Shown one piece after another: positions 62,694 to 63,588 of a DNA stretch of 64,000 nt. Where the stretch lies: the NCBI RefSeq assembly GCF_001723605.1, contig NZ_CP017111.1, positions 1,116,001-1,180,000 of the forward strand, given 5' to 3'. The translations under genes and the position numbers were made by a program. Positions within the stretch are counted from its first letter, which is position 1. Each line of letters starts with the position of its first letter. Origin of the DNA: Sulfurospirillum halorespirans DSM 13726. Its GTDB lineage: Bacteria > Campylobacterota > Campylobacteria > Campylobacterales > Sulfurospirillaceae. Below the pieces are notes generated by a model, which saw only the letters and a list, made by a program, of their open reading frames with translations, was not told the DNA's origin and made no database searches.

Positions 62694-62728
62694 AAGCGTT
62701 CCTATCGCTCTTTGAGATAGGAATGCTT
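62694..62728. terminator. Hairpin after the DedA gene
   Basis: A 13-bp stem (AAGCGTTCCTATC paired with GATAGGAATGCTT, one G-T wobble) with a 9-nt loop. It lies between the DedA stop and the convergent small ORF stop, so it can serve both. Confidence 0.6.
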
Positions 62729-62731
62729 CTC

Positions 62732-62836
62732 TTAAAATATCTTATTGCTTAAAACAAGCATCTTTTGCTCAAAACGGTTCATAAACTCATTGTAGGCTTT
62801 GCGTGAGTGACTGATCGTACAGATTAAACTTTTCAT
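62732..62836 (-). CDS. Candidate 34-residue small protein, divergent from the S24 repressor
   Basis: A short open frame from ATG 62834-62836 to TAA 62732-62734, beginning MKSLICTISHSRKAYNEFMN. The start has AGGAG 7 nt upstream. A promoter can be drawn on the minus strand (TTGTAG, 18 nt, TACAAT at 62867-62872). It is basic, without a membrane helix, and unlike any family I know. The shared control region with the adjacent repressor suggests repressor control. Short length keeps confidence moderate. Confidence 0.5.
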   Translation of the reverse strand: MKSLICTISHSRKAYNEFMNRFEQKMLVLSNKIF

Positions 62837-62857
62837 TGAAGGCTCCTCTGTTATAAA

Positions 62858-62918
62858 ATTTTCACTATTGTATACAAAATGAAAAATATGCTACAATAAT
62901 ATTTCAAAATGAAATATT
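62858..62918. promoter_or_regulatory. Operator/promoter region of the S24 repressor
   Basis: A perfect palindrome AATATTTCA-AAA-TGAAATATT (62898-62918) lies just before the repressor Shine-Dalgarno. A second pair of half-sites, TTTTCA (62859-62864) and TGAAAA (62880-62885), flanks TTGTATACAA. A plus-strand -10 TACAAT is at 62893-62898 and a minus-strand -10 at 62867-62872. This is the layout of an autoregulated divergent promoter. Confidence 0.55.
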
Positions 62919-62928
62919 GGAGGACAAA

Positions 62929-63588
62929 ATGCCAAATATTTTAGCAGTTTTACATAAAGTGAAGGATATTCTCTCCCAAGAGTTGGGTGAACGTAAAGTA
63001 TTTGACAAGGATGTGGCGGAAGCTTTGGGGATCAATCAGCTAACCCTTGCGACGATGAAAAATCGTGCCAAAATTCCCTATAAAGAGATTCTTGAATTTT
63101 GTGCGAAACGTAAAATCTCCATTAACTGGCTTTTGTTTGACCAAGTAGTCGAGAGTTTGCAAGCAGAGACCGATAAATTTGCACGTGTGCATTATTTTAG
63201 AGATATTTACGCTTCAGCAGGTGGTGGAGCGCTGAATGAAGACGAAGAGGGCGAGATGATGTACCTTGATGAGGAGATCGTTGAAAAGCTCGGAGGACTT
63301 GGGATGATTAAGCACATTCAAGCCATCAATGTTTTGGGCGATTCGATGGAGCCAACACTCTTTAGCGGGGATGTGGTGTTCATCAACAAAGAGTATACCA
63401 ACGCTTTAAAATCAGGTATTTACGTGGTCTCTACGCCTGTGGGATTGTTTATCAAACGCCTTCAACTCCACGCCAATGGCACCGTCGCTTTGGTGTCAGA
63501 TAACGAAGCGTATGCCCCAGAACTCATCAACGCAGAAGATGTTCAAGTACTTGGCAAAGTGGTTGGAAAGCTCTCTTCTAATATTTAA
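62929..63588 (+). CDS. HTH / S24-peptidase repressor (CI/LexA-like)
   Basis: A 219-residue regulator. The N-terminal CI-type helix-turn-helix domain spans about residues 1-70 (FDKDVAEALGINQLTLATMKNR). The C-terminal S24 peptidase domain has Ser near 139 in LGDSMEPTLFSGD and Lys near 175 in LFIKRLQL, the dyad for RecA-stimulated self-cleavage. ATG 62929 is chosen (GGAGG 5 nt upstream). No phage genes surround it. Classical LexA is reported missing from most Campylobacterota, so this may be a damage-responsive or stress regulator. Confidence 0.88.
   Translation: MPNILAVLHKVKDILSQELGERKVFDKDVAEALGINQLTLATMKNRAKIPYKEILEFCAKRKISINWLLFDQVVESLQAETDKFARVHYFRDIYASAGGGALNEDEEGEMMYLDEEIVEKLGGLGMIKHIQAINVLGDSMEPTLFSGDVVFINKEYTNALKSGIYVVSTPVGLFIKRLQLHANGTVALVSDNEAYAPELINAEDVQVLGKVVGKLSSNI

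Follow-up and report, generated by a model that had tools for sequence, protein, structure and literature searches.

An S24/CI-like protein of Sulfurospirillum as a candidate LexA substitute of an SOS regulon, with a divergent microprotein gene

The window, the whole 64,000-nucleotide stretch of Sulfurospirillum halorespirans DSM 13726 DNA that was analyzed, carries near its end a gene for an S24/CI-like regulator and a small gene divergent from it. The first-pass annotation had read this pair as a stand-alone repressor outside any prophage, with clear operators, and as a possible LexA-substitute module. The non-prophage setting holds, as the neighboring genes are chromosomal (ABC transporter, Ysc84 and VTT/DedA) and the locus is syntenic in relatives. 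The features, in window positions, are:

62694 to 62728, no strand assigned: hairpin separating DedA from the small ORF, a probable two-way terminator (genus alignment, by eye)
62732 to 62836, minus strand: divergent 34-codon gene, SOS microprotein candidate (length, start, stop and Shine-Dalgarno kept in 24/24 genomes)
62841 to 62849, minus strand: small-ORF Shine-Dalgarno AGAGGAG (purine-rich, conserved in the genus)
62867 to 62872, minus strand: microprotein promoter -10, TACAAT, exactly 27 bp from the operator core (spacing common to 6/6 promoters)
62889 to 62897, plus strand: extended -10 of the regulator promoter (TGCTACAAT; TG-n-TAnnAT kept in the genus)
62898 to 62918, no strand assigned: operator, a perfect 9-3-9 palindrome with the 17-bp core TATTTCAAAATGAAATA at 62900-62916 (kept in 24/24 genus genomes)
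62919 to 62923, plus strand: regulator Shine-Dalgarno GGAGG (sequence and genus alignment)
62929 to 63588, plus strand: S24/CI-like regulator of 219 aa, SOS master-regulator candidate (PF00717 and PF07022 matches)
63217 to 63222, plus strand: A97-G98 codons, for the bond at which LexA-type autocleavage is predicted (Ala-Gly in all 72 homologues)
63343 to 63345, plus strand: codon of catalytic Ser139 (invariant in 72 homologues)
63454 to 63456, plus strand: codon of catalytic Lys176 (invariant in 72 homologues)

The operator has the consensus TATTTCA-N3-TGAAATA. The palindrome and the divergent promoters proposed earlier are both present as listed; a second half-site pair (about 62861-62885) is unconserved in the genus and probably due to chance. 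The palindrome is essentially invariant in the genus alignment and lies 2 bp past the regulator -10 in each of the 24 genomes, a gap that recurs at 23 of 38 distant loci. In the regulator promoter itself the operator lies over +1, which suggests autorepression. Relatives keep a hairpin of differing sequence in the interval between DedA and the small ORF (genus alignment, by eye), so that the small gene appears to form a closed transcription unit. No RNA family in Rfam matched at the locus.

The start codon of the regulator is ATG at 62929, with GGAGG just 5' of it; a TTG at 62917 was rejected as unconserved and without a Shine-Dalgarno sequence. The protein matches Peptidase_S24 (PF00717) with 66 bits, above the cut-off, and Phage_CI_repr (PF07022) with 24.4 against a cut-off of 22, giving it a CI-type helix-turn-helix. 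A CI/LexA-like protein with an intact Ser-Lys dyad, as the first-pass annotation had described it, is thus confirmed: S139 and K176 are 37 residues apart and, like A97-G98, do not vary. In structure comparison the AF2 model (pLDDT 80) resembles lambda and 186 CI and LexA, and a search of solved structures with the sequence returned UmuD fragments only. This is the sole S24 protein in the 3.03-Mb genome. The LexA DNA-binding domain (PF01726) has no match in the whole genome, while control genomes were positive, and the regulator misses the TIGR00498 (LexA) cut-off with 26 bits vs 110.95. By these two curated tests the regulator is not LexA.

The divergent ORF is, on the evidence of its conservation, a real gene. 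Its 34 codons, start, stop and Shine-Dalgarno are retained in all 24 genus genomes, and the internal stops in relatives that would have spoken against it do not occur. The synonymous/non-synonymous comparison called for at the outset indicates purifying selection, with a median pairwise dN/dS of about 0.08 within the genus (dS is saturated in some pairs), and in 8/8 comparisons tested the amino-acid identity clearly exceeds that of a substitution-matched null. Most distant loci, across families, have a homologue of 23-34 aa encoded divergently from the regulator, with a conserved hydrophobic C-terminus (...SNKIF, ...NEKVL, ...GEKIL). At L157 and L159 (TAATG) and at L177-L179 (ATGA) the small gene's stop codon and the start codon of a Y-family polymerase gene overlap, which ties the microprotein to translesion synthesis; in Nautiliaceae and some others the divergent gene is the Y-family polymerase itself. 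The AlphaFold model is a single helix (pLDDT 76). The product, probably one amphipathic helix, may be an SOS effector or an accessory of the Y-family polymerase. Two candidate functions were discarded: a membrane toxin of TisB type, the GRAVY being -0.19 vs 1.62 for TisB, and a clamp-binding motif, in which the Gln is unconserved by eye. Some relatives' microproteins are more hydrophobic than the 34-residue one here. The very short ORF and its leader-like translational coupling to polY in some relatives could also fit a translated leader or regulatory RNA yielding no functional protein. We regard that as unlikely given the low dN/dS, the exact length and the identity far above the null, and also because the ORF has its own promoter with no downstream gene here and has homologues in other families.

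The genome-wide operator scan consisted of pattern searches that assumed no genes, and sites recurring at orthologous places were read. The search for TTTCA-N3-TGAAA type sites, recommended in the first-pass annotation, found them before recA and other repair genes. The recA site is kept at 22 of 23 genus loci (21 with at most one mismatch); for the 23rd recA, whose start was mis-set in the alignment, pattern search found the site. The Y-family polymerase gene polY has the operator in 18/19 orthologues, at about -81. Further targets are the rSAM_link_UDG repair gene with its DUF4130 partner (above the TIGR03916/TIGR03915 cut-offs), DinD (above the NF008573 cut-off) and a gene for a 116-aa zinc-finger-like protein. 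Sites with two mismatches lie near background (39 vs 36 in the control) when taken without a spacing filter, so only those with the 27-bp spacing or with conservation were kept; addB, RhuM and ORF6N genes were picked from them by spacing. A composite pattern of operator and spacing added an integron integrase (TIGR02249, 413 bits vs a cut-off of 265) and Dcm methyltransferases to the genus targets. No classical uvrA, uvrB or sulA sites were seen among the operator sites.

Several observations accompany these sites. The CPYCGG zinc-finger-like protein (116-126 aa) has no Pfam or NCBIfam match; as a regulon member it is conserved over a range that runs from Sulfurospirillum to an Arcobacter MAG, and its genes are at L062:2588-2938 (minus strand), L253, L265, L275, L276 and L379. 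In the recA leaders L115-L137 a hairpin-like GGGCTTTTTCAAGCTC is followed by a second extended -10 (TGnTAAAAT), and in all aligned genus genomes both sit between the operator-linked promoter and the recA start, possibly as a second promoter or an attenuator. It should be mentioned that L137 (G004:C1:2724808-2725256) has an internal TAA near the recA start, either a sequencing error or a broken gene. A palindrome, TTTACATGTAAA, recurs in or beside many operator promoters (rSAM/UDG, polY; L061, L067-L072, L109, L227-L240) and may be an unrelated repeat or the site of another factor. The plasmid-sized contig G005:C2 (39.9 kb; L028, L248, L251) encodes two further S24 homologues and two Y-family polymerases with TATTACACTGTGAAATA operators, a set that represents mobile versions of the regulator module.

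The position of the operator relative to the promoter is fixed. Exactly 27 bp past the operator core stands a TAnnnT hexamer at the small ORF, recA, polY, rSAM/UDG, zinc-finger and dinD promoters, which are independent of one another and make the count 6/6 for this genome. At any other offset there was at most one such hexamer, and none of 50,000 random sets of six reached six at any one offset. The pattern operator-N27-TAnnnT gave 110 matches vs 27 in the control in eight genus genomes and 112 vs 16 in seven genomes outside the genus, four of which had 11-16 matches vs 0-1. In 17 non-orthologous promoters the operator is followed by a T-tract and then by TAnnAT at 27 bp; the tract flanks the operator on the promoter side only. 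The composite pattern already contains the spacing, so that only the first six promoters and those beyond the genus count as unbiased cases for it. Target operators thus lie at about -56 to -40 with invariant spacing, and the regulator's own promoter alone has the operator over +1. Such rigidity suggests contact with RNA polymerase, since a plain repressor would need no such spacing. The motif of mycobacterial PafBC also stands at a set distance from the -10.

The regulator is present in 24/24 Sulfurospirillum genomes, and its closest named relatives are from this genus. A scan of named genomes gave 67 relatives, nearly all Campylobacterota, from Sulfurospirillum, Nautiliaceae, Arcobacteraceae and further Campylobacterales. 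In a sample of the phylum, 226 of 397 genomes, in 53 of 68 genera, have a match at E<=1e-20. Most families have strong matches, with E-values around 1e-70 or lower. Two small-genome families, presumably Helicobacteraceae and Campylobacteraceae, differ: apart from two exceptions, their matches fall short of 1e-51 and are phage-like. Regulators with as little as about 53% protein identity still have the operator before their gene. At distant loci, 36 of 38 microprotein or polymerase promoters have the 27-bp geometry, and 11 distant genomes, five of them Arcobacteraceae, have the operator before recA, the distance to TAnnnT being exactly 27 bp. The Arcobacteraceae sites of regulator and recA have shifted together to TATTgCA/TGtAATA-type forms. 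A point against the SOS reading is that recA has no operator in genomes of S. arcachonense type or in the two Nautiliaceae that were examined (L211, L214, L215, L225, L226). Recognition helices with [LF]ATMK go with TTTCA-type operators, LSILK with TTAACA and FSRSK with TTGATA, the motif classes having been defined on the same loci. Composite targets outside the genus include radA, rmuC, polY, rSAM/UDG, methyltransferases, the zinc-finger protein and further integron integrases. Over all genomes searched, in the genus and beyond it, integrase genes with operator and 27-bp spacing stand at L256, L274, L357, L372 and L382, and integrases exceed the TIGR02249 cut-off in several genomes. In relatives, the operator is also carried by genes for the BrnT, Gp49-like and PemK toxins, which are of toxin-antitoxin type, and for an IS200-like transposase (L356, L368, L375, L384). 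Regulator, operator and regulon occur in most sampled families outside the two host-type ones.

From the sequence evidence we consider it likely that the S24 protein is a LexA substitute commanding an SOS regulon that includes an SOS microprotein. The module suggested at the outset is supported by the operator before recA, polymerase, addB, rSAM/UDG, dinD and integron integrase genes, by the lack of a LexA DNA-binding domain in the genome and by the invariant cleavage and catalytic residues. A dimer of the regulator would bind TATTTCA-N3-TGAAATA, repress its own gene from the site over the transcription start, and control the repair and mutagenesis regulon and the microprotein gene from sites 27 bp upstream of the -10 box. 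The invariance of A97-G98, S139 and K176, together with the CI/LexA-like model, makes RecA-stimulated self-cleavage the expected switch: upon DNA damage, RecA-ssDNA filaments would stimulate cleavage at A97-G98 by S139/K176, the cleaved regulator would leave its operators, and the regulon would be switched, most likely derepressed. At the level of genome comparison we take as established the operator, the regulon, its architecture, the invariance of the cleavage residues and the reality of the small gene; for repression at the targets, our judgment leans modestly in favor.

The fixed spacing is what gives weight to the opposite sign. A regulator bound at about -48 might contact RNA polymerase and activate the repair promoters while repressing only its own gene, in which case simple loss of binding would not be the way damage acts. 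Maintenance of 27 bp across the non-orthologous, microprotein/polymerase and distant recA promoters, restriction of the over-+1 geometry to the regulator's own promoter and the one-sided T-tract all favor this. Lambda CI both represses and activates, the latter at PRM. The LexA homologue GIL01 gp6 is known to activate transcription (PMC6182141). However, the invariant cleavage bond and dyad predict inactivation upon damage, error-prone polymerases and integron integrases are normally kept off, and a polymerase contact could also serve repression, or the operator might coincide in part with an upstream promoter element. We therefore hold activation to be possible but the less probable sign. Equally tentative is its most far-reaching form, a phylum-wide Campylobacterota SOS in which repair, mutagenesis and integron genes are switched by stereospecific RNA polymerase contact from -48, activating targets and repressing the regulator itself, with a dedicated microprotein of 31-34 residues tied to the Y-family polymerase.

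Since operator binding by the S24 protein is predicted from sequence, a different transcription factor might own the palindrome and the S24 gene be merely one of its targets; this appears very unlikely, because operator changes track those of the recognition helix and the autoregulatory placement is the most conserved of all. A common phage repressor standing alone, the remnant of a prophage since lost and with no regulon in the host, would explain the CI-type helix-turn-helix and the nearest phage proteins, repressors of Campylobacter and Helicobacter phages about 35% identical. Yet the regulator is core and syntenic in the genus, has no prophage genes around it and is matched by operators before repair genes across families, leaving such a remnant hardly credible.

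The proposed LexA substitute resembles several known systems. Bacteroidetes COG2932-type (non-canonical LexA) SOS repressors are an established LexA replacement, and the passages on them describe an S24 phage-repressor-like protein in LexA's place and a palindrome before its own gene, recA, dinB/umuC and repair genes (PMC8565304). Corresponding features are found here: a CI-type helix-turn-helix with an S24 domain, whose modelled fold matches 186 and lambda CI, and one palindrome before the regulator gene, recA and a translesion polymerase gene. Unlike here, the Bacteroidetes motif is CTAA-N5-TTAG / GGA-N5-TCC and the phylum is another; those passages mention neither a divergent microprotein nor a fixed operator-to--10 spacing (PMC8565304). 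In Francisella, FddR has been proposed as a LexA-type replacement with EMSA support; it too is a co-opted, autoregulated phage repressor with a divergent gene of unknown function, and it has a paralogue divergent to dinB (PMC13148647). In contrast to the regulator here, FddR leaves recA outside its control and has a tiny regulon in one genus only, and its motif GTG-N11-CAC does not fit TATTTCA-N3-TGAAATA (PMC13148647). The relevant passages on Acinetobacter UmuDAb-DdrR describe LexA-less S24 damage control of error-prone polymerases with a divergent partner, ddrR; for the partner the likeness is one of layout only, UmuDAb being UmuD-derived and DdrR a corepressor unique to Acinetobacter (PMC11332147, PMC7273328). 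Mycobacterial PafBC also governs a damage regulon independent of LexA, but it is a WYL-domain activator sensing ssDNA and has no S24 domain (PMC6789036, PMC11804915). Canonical LexA shares the S24 fold, the Ser-Lys spacing of 37, the Ala-Gly bond and the recA/polymerase/dinD/intI regulon; the regulator differs in having a CI-type helix-turn-helix for the winged helix, another operator and one fixed target position.

S24 kin in the place of LexA are already known from Bacteroidetes and Acinetobacter and have been proposed for Francisella. The novelty lies in the phylum and the operator, in how far the regulon reaches (recA and integrases among its members), in the strict promoter geometry and in the microprotein. 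Campylobacterota have been cited as being without LexA, and Helicobacter pylori as without an SOS response (PMC2912397); in the open-access literature we found no SOS system described for Sulfurospirillum, Arcobacter or Campylobacterota. A survey of 15 LexA motifs had found only E. coli-like LexA sites at integron integrases (PMC3108266). A microprotein family linked to translesion synthesis is now named, and the rigid operator spacing turns repression versus activation into a testable question. If our reading is true, damage control of integron integrases extends outside the beta/gamma-Proteobacteria, and Campylobacterota possess an SOS response, probably lost in the host-associated members.
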